Origin: Bradyrhizobium sp. dw_411
Lineage (GTDB): Bacteria > Pseudomonadota > Alphaproteobacteria > Rhizobiales > Xanthobacteraceae
Assembly: GCF_018449695.1 (NCBI RefSeq)
Contig: NZ_JAAVUY010000001.1
Location: 62,001-126,000 of the forward strand
Direction: 5' to 3'
DNA length: 64,000 bases
This document shows, one piece after another, positions 13,747 to 39,976 of the stretch (its first letter is position 1; every line of letters starts with the position of its first letter). Below the pieces are notes generated by a model. It had not been told where the DNA came from, ran no database searches, and worked only from the letters and a program-made list of their open reading frames with translations. The position numbers and the translations under genes are program-made.

Positions 13747-14068
13747 GCGTCGAACACACGGTTTTGGACGCTATCGGGCATTCGGGACCAAATACCCTGA
13801 CGATTCGATGCTGCCGGTAACCCTCTGAATTAGCCTAAAAAAATCGAAATTTCCGGGCCCCCAAGGAGTGAATTCAAAATCAATCTTTGGGGTACCCGGC
13901 GGTGCCTGTTTTTACTCAAAAAATTTTGTTCCAGGCCCATCCTGTAGAGGCGGACAGCCGGTACTCCCCCTGTATATTGGGCAAATGATTTGTTTTTGCG
14001 CCGACCGATTTCGCTGGCGGCAGATATGGCAGAATCCGGGCGAGTTTCTCCTCCCCGGACTGACAGAC
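13747..14068. other. Intergenic region with a hairpin, no gene
   Basis: 322 bases between phaZ and the metallopeptidase. An imperfect inverted repeat pairs CCGGGCCCCCAA (13853-13864) with TTGGGGTACCCGG (13887-13899), followed 10 bases later by CTGTTTTTAC; this may be a transcription terminator for phaZ. The metallopeptidase frame stays open back to 13868, but the encoded stretch looks non-coding (Cys-rich, no family similarity). Confidence 0.5.
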
Positions 14069-14824
14069 ATGGCCACTCGCGCCCTCCTTTATCGGCGTCC
14101 TGCCGAACCTTCTCGACTTCTGGTCAAGCACGGCTCGCAAATCTATTCGGTGAGGCTGCGCCGCCACCGGCGCGCGCGGCGTTACACGTTGCGCATCCAT
14201 CCGAGCGACCGCGAAGCCATCCTGACCATGCCGCCGCGCGGCACCATCATCGAGGCCAAGGACTTTGCGCAGCGCCACGGCGCCTGGATCGCCGCGCGTC
14301 TTGGCCGGTTGCCGAAGGCTGCACCGTTTCTTCCGGGCACGTCGGTACCGTTGCGTGGCGTTCCGCACCGGATCGTGCATCGTGCGGCGATGCGCGGCAC
14401 CGTATGGACCGAAATACGCGACAGCGGCGAGCGAATTCTCTGCGTGGCCGGCGCCAGCGAACACATCGAGCGGCGGGTGCTGGATTATCTGAAGCGCGAA
14501 GCGCGCAAGGATCTGCAGAAGGCGTCAATTTCCTACGCGCAGGAACTCGCCGTCAAAGTCCGGCGGCTGTCGATCCGCGATCAGTCGAGCCGCTGGGGCT
14601 CCTGCACTTCGGCAGGATCGCTGTCCTTTTCGTGGCGGCTGATCCTGGCGCCACCCTATGTGCTGGATTATCTGGCCGCCCACGAAGTGGCGCATCTGGT
14701 CGAGATGAACCATTCGGCACGGTTCTGGCGGGTGGTCGCTAAAGTGTGCAGCCATGTCGAGCGCGCCAAGACCTGGCTCGACACCCACGGCAACGATCTG
14801 CACCGCTACGGCATTTCGGATTAG
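14069..14824 (+). CDS. YgjP/SprT-like zinc metallopeptidase domain protein (DUF45)
   Basis: 251 residues of the YgjP-like family. The N-terminal half has the typical RRHRRARRYTLRIHPSDREAILTMP beta-rich segment. The active site is HEVAHLVEMNH with H205, E206, H209 and a third ligand H215, preceded by RWGSCTSAGSLSFSWRL, the other family signature. Zinc-dependent hydrolysis is expected from the HExxH motif. The physiological role is unsettled across the family. The start at 14069 is the first Met where family similarity begins. Confidence 0.88.
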   Translation: MATRALLYRRPAEPSRLLVKHGSQIYSVRLRRHRRARRYTLRIHPSDREAILTMPPRGTIIEAKDFAQRHGAWIAARLGRLPKAAPFLPGTSVPLRGVPHRIVHRAAMRGTVWTEIRDSGERILCVAGASEHIERRVLDYLKREARKDLQKASISYAQELAVKVRRLSIRDQSSRWGSCTSAGSLSFSWRLILAPPYVLDYLAAHEVAHLVEMNHSARFWRVVAKVCSHVERAKTWLDTHGNDLHRYGISD

Positions 14825-14847: not shown

Positions 14848-14891
14848 CCTCATGGTTCGAGACGCGCGAAGACGCGCTCCTCACCATGAGG
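14848..14891. repeat. CCTCATGG palindrome
   Basis: Inverted repeat from CCTCATGGTTCGAGACGCGC to GCGCTCCTCACCATGAGG. Same family as 2667-2746, 32116-32160 and 39891-39934. It lies just after the metallopeptidase stop codon. Confidence 0.8.
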
Positions 14892-14917: not shown

Positions 14918-15147
14918 CCTCATCCTGAGAGCCTGACTGATAATTCGCAGGAGCCACCGTGTGTGGCTTTAAGTACCGGTTCCCGCGCAACTTTAGAATC
15001 GATTGGCGTGTGGTTCTGAAATTTTAGAATCAAGAGAAGCGAAGCCAAATCGACTGCCGCAGGACAAAAATGCCAAAGTGCGGCCGTCCTGCGAATTATG
15101 AGTCAGACTCTGAGGAGCATCGCAAAGCGATGCGTCTCGAAGGATGA
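14918..15147. repeat. CCTCATCCTGAG palindrome interrupted by an insertion
   Basis: Left part CCTCATCCTGAG at 14918-14929; right part GAGCATCGCAAAGCGATGCG onward to GTCTCGAAGGATGA ending at 15147. Joined, they form the same palindrome as the unbroken copy at 32062-32105 (CCTCATCCTGAGGAGC to CGTCTCGAAGGATGA). The break is the element at 14930-15109. Confidence 0.85.
14930..15109. mobile_element. 180-bp non-autonomous element (MITE) with 23-bp inverted repeats
   Basis: The ends are inverted repeats matching at 21 of 23 positions: AGCCTGACTGATAATTCGCA at 14930 (continuing GGA to 14952) against the reverse complement of 15087-15109. It is flanked by the direct repeat CTGAG at 14925-14929 and 15110-15114, a 5-base target duplication. 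It has no coding capacity and AT-richer interior DNA (TTTAGAATC occurs twice). The host palindrome has an intact relative at 32062, which shows the empty site. Mobilisation in trans by a transposase elsewhere is inferred; the IS family was not identified. Confidence 0.85.
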
Positions 15148-15171: not shown

Positions 15172-17448
15172 CTATCGTCCGCCGAACAAGCGATCCACCA
15201 GCCAGCCGTCCAAGCCGCTCGCCGCCTCTGGTCGTACTGAGGCCGAGGCGCGTGTCGGCGCCGGTCGGACGGCAGAGCTCGCTGACACCGGCGCATTGAT
15301 CGGCTGCGAATTTGCAGGCGGATAGGCCGGTGAAGGCGGATAGACCTGCGGCGCATAAACCTGTGGCGCGTTTGACGGCGCGACGGCCTGCGCGATGTTC
15401 GCCAATAGACCGCCCGAGGGGGCCGGCGGCACCGGCAGCGGCACAGGTGTGATGCCTTGGTGGGCTGATTTCATGAACCGGGTCCAGATCTCCACTGGCA
15501 AGCCGCCACCGGTGGCTTTCTTGGTCGGCGAGCTGTCGTCATTGCCGAGCCAGACGCCGGTCACGAGATTGGCCGTGTAGCCGATGAACCAGGCGTCGCG
15601 GAAATCCTGGCTGGTGCCGGTTTTGCCGGCGGCCATCCAGCCCGGCAGTTCCGCCTTGTGCGCGGTGCCGCTAAGTAGCGTCTCCTGCATCATCGTGTTC
15701 ATCATGGCGACGTTACGCGGCTCGATCACTTGGCCGAGCTGGTCGGGCTGGCGCGCATAGAGCACCTTGTTGCCCTCGGTGGTGCGGATTTTGTTGACGA
15801 CATGGGGCGAAACGCCGAGGCCGCCATTGGCGAACGGCACATAGGCGCCAACCAGTTCGACCACCGAAACTTCCGAGGTGCCGAGCGCAATCGACGCATT
15901 GGCGTCGAGCTTCGAGGAGATGCCAAGCCGGTGCGCCGTGCGCACGACGTTTTTCGGTCCAACTTCCAGCCCGAGCCGCACCGCGACCGTGTTGAGCGAC
16001 ATCGCCAGCGCCTGCGTCAGGGTCACCGAGCCGAAATATTCATGGCTGTAATTTTCGGGCTTCCATCCCTTGACGTCGAGCGGCGCATCCTGCCGGATCG
16101 TTTCGGGTGTGAGGCCGGCCTCGATGGCGGTGAGATAGACAAAAGGCTTGAATGCGGAACCCGGCTGGCGCCTCGCGGTGACCGCGCGGTTGTACTGGCT
16201 CTCGGTATAGTTACGCCCGCCGACCATCGCGCGCACCGCTCCGTCAGGCGTCATCGCGACCAGCGCGCCCTGCGTAACATTGAATTTCACGCTTTTGGCC
16301 GCGAGTTCGTCGATCACGGAGGCTTCGGCGATGCTCTGGAGTTTCGGGTCGATCGAGGTTTCGACCACGACGCTCTGGTCGATCTGGCCCACGAGATCGT
16401 CGAGCACTTCGCCGATCCAGTCCGCGACATAATTGACGGTACCGGCGCCGACCGGTTTCACATTGTAAGAAGGATGCCCGATCGTGGCCTGCGCCTGCGC
16501 GTCCGTGATGAATTTGGAATCCGCCATCGCGGCCAACACGATCTGGGCGCGCTGCTCGGCGCCTTCCGGATTACGATTGGGCGCCAGCCGCGACGGCGAT
16601 TTGACCAGGCCCGCCAGCATCGCAGCTTCCGCGATCGTGACGTTCTTGGCGGACTTGCCGAAATAGCGCTGCGCGGCAGCTTCGACGCCGTAGGCGCCGG
16701 AACCGAAATAGACCCGGTTGAGATAGAGTTCGAGAATCTCGGCCTTGGAATGCTTGCGCTCCAGCCACAGCGCCAGTTCGACTTCCTGCAGTTTGCGCTG
16801 GAACGTGCGCTCCTGCGTCAGGAACAAATTCTTGGCGAGCTGTTGCGTCAGCGTCGAGCCACCCTGCGATACCCCGTGATGCAGGACATTGGTTACCGCC
16901 GCGCGCGCGATGCCAAGGGGATCGACGCCGTAATGCGAATAGAACCGGCGATCCTCGATGGCGATGAAGGCATTCGGCAAATAGGGCGGCAGGTCCTTCA
17001 GCGCGACATTGGTGCCGGCCATTTCGCCGCGCGTCGCCAGCACGCTGCCATCGAGGCCGACGATCTGGATCGTCGGCGGCCGTTTTGGAATTTCCAGCGA
17101 CTGGATCGCCGGCAGATGCGCGCCGACCCAGACGACGACGCCGATCACCGCAATCGCGGCCCACAGGCCGAGCACCGCTCCCCAATAGAACAGGCGCGAG
17201 ATGAAGCCGCCGCGTGATTTCGAGCGGCGCTTGCTGCCGCTGCGGCCCGGCTGCGGCTTGCGCTCGCGCGGCGGCTCGTCGCCGGAATCATCGGTTTCAC
17301 GCTTGGGGGGTTTTTTGGCGGACTTCTTGGGCTTGTCGTCTGCGACGGAGATGCGGTCCTGCGGAGTGAGGCGCAATTCGCCGAGCGCAGCGGCGAGCCC
17401 GAATTGCGGCTCCTTGCGTCCGCCGCTCTTTTTCCGTGCCCACGCCAT
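15172..17448 (-). CDS. PBP1A-family bifunctional penicillin-binding protein
   Basis: 758-residue class A PBP: cytoplasmic basic N terminus, one membrane helix (LGLWAAIAVIGVVVWVGAHL), a GT51 glycosyltransferase domain (IEDRRFYSHYG with catalytic E165; QGGSTLTQQLAKN; RKLQEVELALWLERK) and a transpeptidase domain (active-site S431 and K434 in GSAFKPF, SLNT, GKTGTSQDF). The C-terminal 100 residues are Pro/Ala-rich. It polymerises and cross-links peptidoglycan in the periplasm. ATG at 17448 is preferred over an in-frame TTG two codons earlier. The gene stands alone. Confidence 0.94.
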   Translation of the reverse strand: MAWARKKSGGRKEPQFGLAAALGELRLTPQDRISVADDKPKKSAKKPPKRETDDSGDEPPRERKPQPGRSGSKRRSKSRGGFISRLFYWGAVLGLWAAIAVIGVVVWVGAHLPAIQSLEIPKRPPTIQIVGLDGSVLATRGEMAGTNVALKDLPPYLPNAFIAIEDRRFYSHYGVDPLGIARAAVTNVLHHGVSQGGSTLTQQLAKNLFLTQERTFQRKLQEVELALWLERKHSKAEILELYLNRVYFGSGAYGVEAAAQRYFGKSAKNVTIAEAAMLAGLVKSPSRLAPNRNPEGAEQRAQIVLAAMADSKFITDAQAQATIGHPSYNVKPVGAGTVNYVADWIGEVLDDLVGQIDQSVVVETSIDPKLQSIAEASVIDELAAKSVKFNVTQGALVAMTPDGAVRAMVGGRNYTESQYNRAVTARRQPGSAFKPFVYLTAIEAGLTPETIRQDAPLDVKGWKPENYSHEYFGSVTLTQALAMSLNTVAVRLGLEVGPKNVVRTAHRLGISSKLDANASIALGTSEVSVVELVGAYVPFANGGLGVSPHVVNKIRTTEGNKVLYARQPDQLGQVIEPRNVAMMNTMMQETLLSGTAHKAELPGWMAAGKTGTSQDFRDAWFIGYTANLVTGVWLGNDDSSPTKKATGGGLPVEIWTRFMKSAHQGITPVPLPVPPAPSGGLLANIAQAVAPSNAPQVYAPQVYPPSPAYPPANSQPINAPVSASSAVRPAPTRASASVRPEAASGLDGWLVDRLFGGR

Positions 17449-17634
17449 ACGCAAACGCGCCCATCACCCGATGCGGCACACTAGCGAGCGGGATTTAAAG
17501 CCGCGTTAAGCGATGATTAATGCTGAGACGATGACTGGCCTGCAAGTACCTCAAAAACAAGGCGTTCAGGCCCTCTTAACCCTACCGGACGGCTGCCGAT
17601 GGCGGGCTGCCGAGAGAGGGCGGGACAATTCGAG
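17449..17634. other. Upstream region of the PBP gene, no gene seen
   Basis: Non-coding gap before the palindrome at 17635. It presumably holds the PBP promoter on the minus strand. No element was recognised. A 66-codon plus-strand frame starting here runs into the repeat and is not credible. Confidence 0.5.
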
Positions 17635-32061: not shown

Positions 32062-32160
32062 CCTCATCCTGAGGAGCGGCCACTTGGCCGCGTCTCGAAG
32101 GATGACAGGATTAACCTGATGGTTCGAGACGGCGCTGAAGTAGCGCCTCCTCACCATGAG
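32062..32160. repeat. Two adjacent palindromic repeats between pcaF and pcaH
   Basis: At 32062-32105 an intact palindrome CCTCATCCTGAGGAGC...CGTCTCGAAGGATGA, which is the empty-site form of the element broken at 14918-15147. At 32116-32160 a second palindrome, CTGATGGTTCGAGACGGCGC to CTCACCATGAG. Their hairpins could attenuate readthrough from pcaF into pcaHG. Confidence 0.85.
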
Positions 32161-39825: not shown

Positions 39826-39934
39826 CATCCTTCGAGACGGCGCTTCGCGCCTCCTCAGGATGAGGCCGGAGCCTGGACGATCTCTCGATCCCTCATGGTG
39901 AGGAGCGCGGCTTCGCGCGTCTCGAACCATGAGG
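39826..39934. repeat. Two adjacent palindromic repeats after ispG
   Basis: At 39826-39865 CATCCTTCGAGACGGCGCTT to CTCCTCAGGATGAGG; at 39891-39934 CCTCATGGTGAGGAGCGCGG to GCGCGTCTCGAACCATGAGG. Same families as 2554-2746, 14848-15147 and 32062-32160. Confidence 0.85.
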
Positions 39935-39976
39935 CCACGCCACTGAGACAGCTTCTCACACTACAATTGCTGAACG

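Follow-up and report, generated by a model that had tools for sequence, protein, structure and literature searches.

Our analyses identified eight copies of a short non-coding element which interrupts a dispersed palindrome of the form CATCCTNAGGA...CGAAGGATG always at the same base (8/8 copies), and this fixed palindrome position, common to all eight copies, is the main finding of the present study. The duplicated target bases agree on the two sides of each copy, and ISs of the IS5 family with matching ends likewise use a CTNAG target, often in the same palindrome arm. In the window, i.e. the whole 64,000-nucleotide stretch of DNA that was analysed, the features of the element support its description as a MITE that has entered a dispersed palindrome; very probably it constitutes a non-autonomous element of an IS5-family IS group that homes to REPs via a CTNAG/CCTNAGG target. 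Its classification as both an IS5-type MITE and a REP-targeting mobile element appears sound at the level of sequence comparison, with an unusually clean target specificity.

The window copy carries 23-bp terminal inverted repeats at 14930-15109 that match at 21 of 23 positions (22/24 when the flanking G/C is included), and CTGAG is present both to its left and to its right, all of which confirms the original prediction. The lack of coding capacity was confirmed as well: the longest complete frame inside the element comprises 32 aa, and a transposase must therefore act in trans. If the duplication is of 3 bp, the element measures 182 bp (14929-15110, forward strand) and has G...C ends, as do its IS5-type relatives with TNA duplications, its left terminal inverted repeat GAGCCTGACTGATAATTCGCAGGA occupying positions 14929-14952 on the forward strand (22/24 identical to the right end) and its right one, GAGTCTGACTCATAATTCGCAGGA in the minus-strand reading, positions 15087-15110; with a duplication of 5 bp the element would extend over 14930-15109. 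When the window was scanned with the end pattern, allowing up to three mismatches, two places were found, both of them element ends (shuffle expectation 0.00), and at the same threshold the element's own genome (7.32 Mb, 54 contigs) gave 16 matches (8 + 8), two per copy and none elsewhere. The eight copies lie on eight contigs, one on each, all of them 180 bp long, free of gaps and with an identity of 97.8-100% to the copy in the window. The proposed search of this genome for the ends with their duplications thus yielded seven copies besides that of the window. The element also shows a strong fold (z about -6), which is put down mainly to the terminal repeats; RNA function is not claimed, and a search of Rfam returned nothing in the element, its sub-threshold hit (E 0.55) lying only outside it.

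CTNAG is repeated on both sides in all eight copies, and its central base always agrees between the two sides, being, in the orientation of the element, G in four copies, C in three and A in one (at locus L004, CTAAG stands on both sides of the MITE). Because this base varies among copies but agrees on both sides, the repeat derives from the target. Excision in silico of 180 bp plus one CTNAG rebuilt a strict palindrome in 8/8 copies, so that what had been predicted for the window copy holds for every copy. In the window, the left part of the interrupted REP-like palindrome (CCTCATCCTGAG) lies at 14918-14929 and the right part (CTGAGGAGCATCGCAAAGCGATGCGTCTCGAAGGATG) at 15110-15146, both on the forward strand, and the rebuilt form (14921-15146) is by eye letter-for-letter identical to five intact palindromes elsewhere in the genome. 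The rebuilt forms of four copies (L001, L002, L005 and L007) were identical by eye to members of the 81 unfilled strict palindromes of the genome, and two of these four identities were recovered in a separate comparison over retrieved loci. With 81 unfilled palindromes and seven further copies in this genome, neither empty sites nor other copies are wanting within it, and 8/89 (about 9%) of the strict palindromes are filled. The palindrome at 32062-32105 (annotated by us as 32062-32104, forward strand; CATCCTGAGGAG...CGAAGGATG), which the original prediction had put forward as the empty site, is indeed an unfilled palindrome of this type, but it represents a paralogous and not an orthologous target, its stem being GGCCACTTGGCC versus ATCGCAAAGCGAT here; a second unfilled palindrome of the same type is found at 39826-39865 on the minus strand. 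The same type of palindrome in all copies would also be expected if a composite repeat, made up of palindrome and insert, had spread by duplication or recombination, its 180-bp part never transposing. However, the palindromes surrounding the eight copies differ in their stems and flanks, the insert is oriented one way relative to the palindrome in five copies and the other way in three, the central base of the duplication varies while agreeing on both sides, and 81 palindromes have no insert, all of which makes spread as a composite extremely improbable.

Other palindromes were noticed in the window and in the assembly. One at 2554-2598 is of the CATCCT type with CCGGAG instead of CTGAG as its target, which would be unusable under our model. 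CATCCT-type and CATGGT-type palindromes lie close to each other at three places of the window (14848-14891 with 14918-15146, 32062-32160 and 39826-39940), in an arrangement resembling a mosaic pair of two REP types. Several contigs of the assembly (L279, L287, L291, L323, L329, L332 and L337) begin or end inside palindromes of one or the other type, near the loop, as if hairpins broke the assembly.

The IS family, originally regarded as not recognisable from the ends, is IS5, as indicated by full-length ISs that share these ends in other species of the genus. These ISs were reached through locus L052 of a relative, one of 30 genus loci whose weak end matches had no inverted partner at the threshold used; its end match adjoins the edge of an IS5-type transposase frame. 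A similar IS is present in L078, and its transposase matches NF033580 (IS5 family; E 5.9e-53). Used as a query, the L078 transposase had matches at E 0.001, many of them weak, in 166 of 265 genus genomes and none in the MITE's own genome. Seventy loci were examined, comprising the 30 returned for this transposase and 40 picked by hand from its match list; two had no full pair of ends and four were duplicates, leaving 64 paired-end calls. Equal 3-bp flanks were found in 48 of the 64, from 20 genomes; the remaining 16, among them ends that had been paired wrongly and copies cut by the end of a contig, were excluded from the counts. All 48 equal-flank ISs, of 923-936 bp, have TNA as the repeated flank, and their insertion site is CTNAG in 47 and CCTNAGG in 36. 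In 33 of them (nine genomes, with many of the insertions supplied by copies in G238 and G239) the IS interrupts the arm CAYCCTNAGG at precisely the base used by the MITE. The 15 ISs outside the arm are mostly spread over other genomes, and 14 of these are still in CTNAG; they include L168, L169 and L195, whose best end matches that of the MITE at 17 of 18 positions.

The closest IS (L182, 935 bp, in G239, where five further copies exist) has ends beginning GAGCCTGACTGATAA and GAGTCTGACTCATAAT, which are identical to the outer 15/15 bases on the left and 16/16 on the right of the MITE, asymmetry included; the full 24-base comparison of the MITE with this nearest IS gives 18/24 at each end. This one genome supplied all six distinct copies of the L182 type, each of which occupies the REP arm and is flanked by a TNA duplication. 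Its transposase is encoded by one frame of 277 aa, matching NF033580 (E 7.7e-74) as well as PF01609 and PF13340. Because no convincing similarity between the MITE and the L182 IS was detected beyond the ends, the latter is a relative of the MITE's parent and not the parent itself. In G239, 935-bp and 933-bp IS5-type elements with different ends coexist, both using the REP arm, and the 933-bp element also occurs in G238 (loci L182 and L199-L206 belong to G239; L194 and L208-L216 to G238).

These ISs also bear on the size of the duplication. The IS at L168 is preceded by C-TAA and followed by TAA-A, and since its flanks have only TAA in common, 3 bp is favoured for the IS group; at L075, in G096, the flank of one IS end reads ATA in place of TNA. 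The flanks of the MITE fit TNA in 8/8 copies, but a 5-bp reading fits CTNAG equally: in the window, the duplicated bases would be TGA at 14926-14928 and 15111-15113 in the former reading, the one that agrees with the TNA of 48/48 equal-flank ISs, or CTGAG at 14925-14929 and 15110-15114 in the latter. Most simply, the MITE duplication would be of 3 bp (TNA) inside a CTNAG target, giving an element of 182 bp, and a 5-bp duplication stays a possible reading; of the original claim, the CTGAG repeat stands, but the 5-bp duplication and the 180-bp length would change under this simpler reading. Enzymes of the IS1634- and Tn3-like types make 5-bp duplications, and the presence of CTNAG on both sides in 8/8 copies would accord with a mover of this sort outside the IS5 family. 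Such a mover is nevertheless very unlikely, given the 3-bp TNA of those IS5-family elements whose ends match, with L168 duplicating TAA only; the ends of Tn3-type elements are, moreover, not known to resemble those of the MITE.

In order to evaluate the target preference, a genome sample of 1.26 Mb was used, consisting of 60 hand-picked stretches of 20 kb plus the window minus the insert and one repeat, in which the palindrome membership of sites was scored by a loose rule. In this sample, CTNAG sites lie in palindromes in 63 of 1394 cases, so that finding 8/8 by chance would have a probability of about 2e-11; the corresponding values are 25/93 and about 3e-5 for CCTNAGG, and 21/23 and 0.48 for TCCTNAGGA. 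The palindrome preference is therefore real, yet it can be explained by the 9-bp symmetric site TCCTNAGGA alone. The same genome contains a sister palindrome of the CATGGT type, CATGGTGAGGA...CGAACCATG, which has G for C at the first target base; in the window it is represented at 14848-14891 (forward strand), where GTGAG replaces CTGAG. The 1.26-Mb sample includes 13 strict sister palindromes versus 21 strict target palindromes; a first impression that the sister type was the commoner one (5 vs 2 in 464 kb) was reversed by this larger sample. The sister palindrome CATGGTGAGG contains no insertion from among the 8 MITEs or the 48 ISs, and under a blind choice between the two types the chance of 0/8 would be about 0.02.

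These counts also weigh upon the question of whether the REP might be recognised as a structure, hairpin or cruciform, with the CTNAG match being secondary. The rebuilding of a complete palindrome in 8/8 copies and the location of 33 of the 48 IS copies in the REP-like arm are in keeping with recognition of structure, as is the reported insertion of ISPsy8 on the axis of symmetry of a REP hairpin that was predicted (PMC1525189). The insertions, however, sit in one palindrome arm and not at the loop; sequence alone predicts 8/8, with 21 of 23 TCCTNAGGA sites being in palindromes (chance 0.48); of the 48 ISs, 15 have inserted elsewhere than in the arm, yet for 14 of these the site is still CTNAG; and the CATGGT sister palindrome is present yet holds 0/8, which at a chance of about 0.02 is moderate evidence only. 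We consider recognition of structure unlikely on balance, and retain homing through the CTNAG/CCTNAGG target as the preferred explanation.

The search for a helper and for further copies was extended to larger genome collections. With the whole element as a query, the 265 genus genomes gave a match in the MITE's own genome only (up to three candidates scored per genome). The end pattern was matched with two or three mismatches in at least 69 other genomes of this set, the reversed control also being matched in many, and among the matches listed none outside the own genome had 0 or 1 mismatch. ISs with the full 23-bp ends were found neither in the 265 genus genomes (up to three mismatches), nor in 198 family genomes, nor in a named genome collection (exact-pattern scan), and none with the MITE's ends was found in 385 class genomes (exact 18-base pattern). 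A plasmid search with the whole element returned no match, and one with its first 30 bases returned three weak 20-base matches (E 5). Several end matches were discarded: in the ORF lists of L025 and L026, which alone among the foreign genomes of the family search matched at 3 mismatches, we recognised no transposase; L059 and L061 show by eye a single end and were treated as chance; and eight matches in viral contigs were likewise treated as chance, having no facing second end (up to five mismatches) and no TNA flank. An uncultured Rhodospirillaceae MAG contains one full copy of a 143-bp element (L060, 3929-4071) with ends GAGCCTGACCCATAATTC and GAGCCTGACTCATAATTC in a CTAAG target with TAA duplicated, as well as one further single end (L058); its ends and target are like those of the window MITE but its interior is different, which hints at the existence of MITEs bearing ends of this kind beyond the genus.

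Within the own genome, no autonomous IS with the MITE's ends was detected, all 16 ends belonging to the eight MITEs, some of the smallest contigs reading as N. The end motif was absent from 42 stretches of this genome corresponding to contig starts, contig ends and small contigs (60 retrieved), and the L182 transposase had no tblastn match in 33 such stretches. The contigs that appear as N might conceivably conceal a collapsed helper copy. NF033580 matched only a fragment in L079 (G000:C5:176262-176417; 52 profile positions, below the cut-off, in a 167-aa frame), in a locus from which the end motif is absent; this fragment of an IS5_3-like transposase is a possible relic of a former IS. The sole PF01609 match of the genome, L057, is a frame of 461 aa, longer than the 277-aa L182 transposase, and was set aside as presumably another family. 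Since MITEs without a helper are known, the missing autonomous IS is not taken as excluding the MITE class.

The window copy is situated between two converging frames, 13868-14824 on the forward strand and 15172-17454 on the reverse strand, which we read as putatively metallopeptidase-like and penicillin-binding-protein-like, respectively. According to a mechanical ORF listing, frames of at least 100 aa extend into the element in 6/8 copies and span the rebuilt site in 5/8, so an intergenic location is not established for every single copy. Orthologous loci were compared over a collection with one genome per species. The upstream gene of the window locus was matched in 264 of 265 genus genomes, and the loci of 29 relatives were retrieved (best identity 85%), the downstream penicillin-binding-protein gene being kept in 17; no TCCTNAGGA site was found at the orthologous locus in these retrieved loci.

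Taken as a mechanism, our preferred explanation would involve a transposase of the IS5 group that binds ends beginning GAGNCTGACT and cuts and joins at TNA within the symmetric CTNAG/CCTNAGG target, duplicating 3 bp; because the target is symmetric, insertion could occur in either orientation. With the best target matches (TCCTNAGGA) almost confined to one REP-like palindrome arm, the element would home to REPs, recognition being by sequence and not by hairpin shape. The MITE would have been moved in trans by an IS5 transposase of this group, and the helper may then have been lost, or may have been present only for a time. It is possible, if somewhat doubtful, that the IS5-family elements and MITEs of the genus are specialised on REP-like palindromes, with a recognition reaching beyond CTNAG, and that the MITE has here outlived its helper. 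Were such a specialisation true, REPs would offer safe ports outside genes, of which about 9% (8/89 strict sites) are filled.

A single genome that offers one target in 8 filled and 81 empty instances provides a clean natural experiment on how ISs choose their targets, to which the sister palindrome adds a partial negative control and the related species add full-length relatives. Going by the literature found, as far as its available parts extend, the IS5 family joins those inserting inside REPs at a fixed base, and a MITE with REP specificity links two classes of intergenic repeats, REPs and MITEs. Judged by titles and the opening lines of abstracts, the literature searched contained no report of a REP-confined MITE; the words "mite" and "miniature" are absent from the main text of PMC1525189, and in the available portions of PMC3733652, where Bradyrhizobium REPs are described, and PMC5082802, which describes two more, we found no mention of the insertion of such an element in them.

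Among known systems, the nearest is the IS1031-like group of the IS5 family (NF033580, transpos_IS5_3), which shares the GAGNCTGACT... ends and the 3-bp TNA duplication, with lengths of 923-936 bp in the 48 relatives, and to which we assign the latter as a reading; the window element differs from the IS5 ISs sampled in having no transposase and in a match limited to the outer 15-18 bases. In PMC2516522, the members of the IS1031 group are described as having in common an insertion site of three nucleotides and one ORF. REP-specific ISs, as listed in the sections of PMC1525189 available, include ISPsy8, ISPa11, ISPpu9/10, ISRm22 and ISRm19, in addition to the earlier known IS1397, IS621 and ISKpn1; ISPsy8 interrupts the REP at one and the same position in five of five copies and duplicates 3 bp. 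In the same sections, the elements described are complete ISs belonging to the IS3, IS110 and IS4 families, whereas here the homing element is a MITE. ISNm1106, the only IS5 member treated there, prefers spaces that contain REPs (4/7 and 7/14); unlike it, the IS5 relatives of the MITE insert inside the REP arm. MITEAba12 (PMC6382973) and the bacterial MITEs named in PMC3733652, RUP and Nezha, are short, non-coding, bounded by terminal inverted repeats and presumed to move in trans, as here, but in the parts of these sources available no restriction to one REP position is described for them. Finally, according to PMC3733652, REP-type repeats from three bacteria are regularly found inside other palindromes, i.e. 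short repeats inside a palindrome as in our case, with the roles exchanged: there the REP is the insert, and here it is the target of the MITE.
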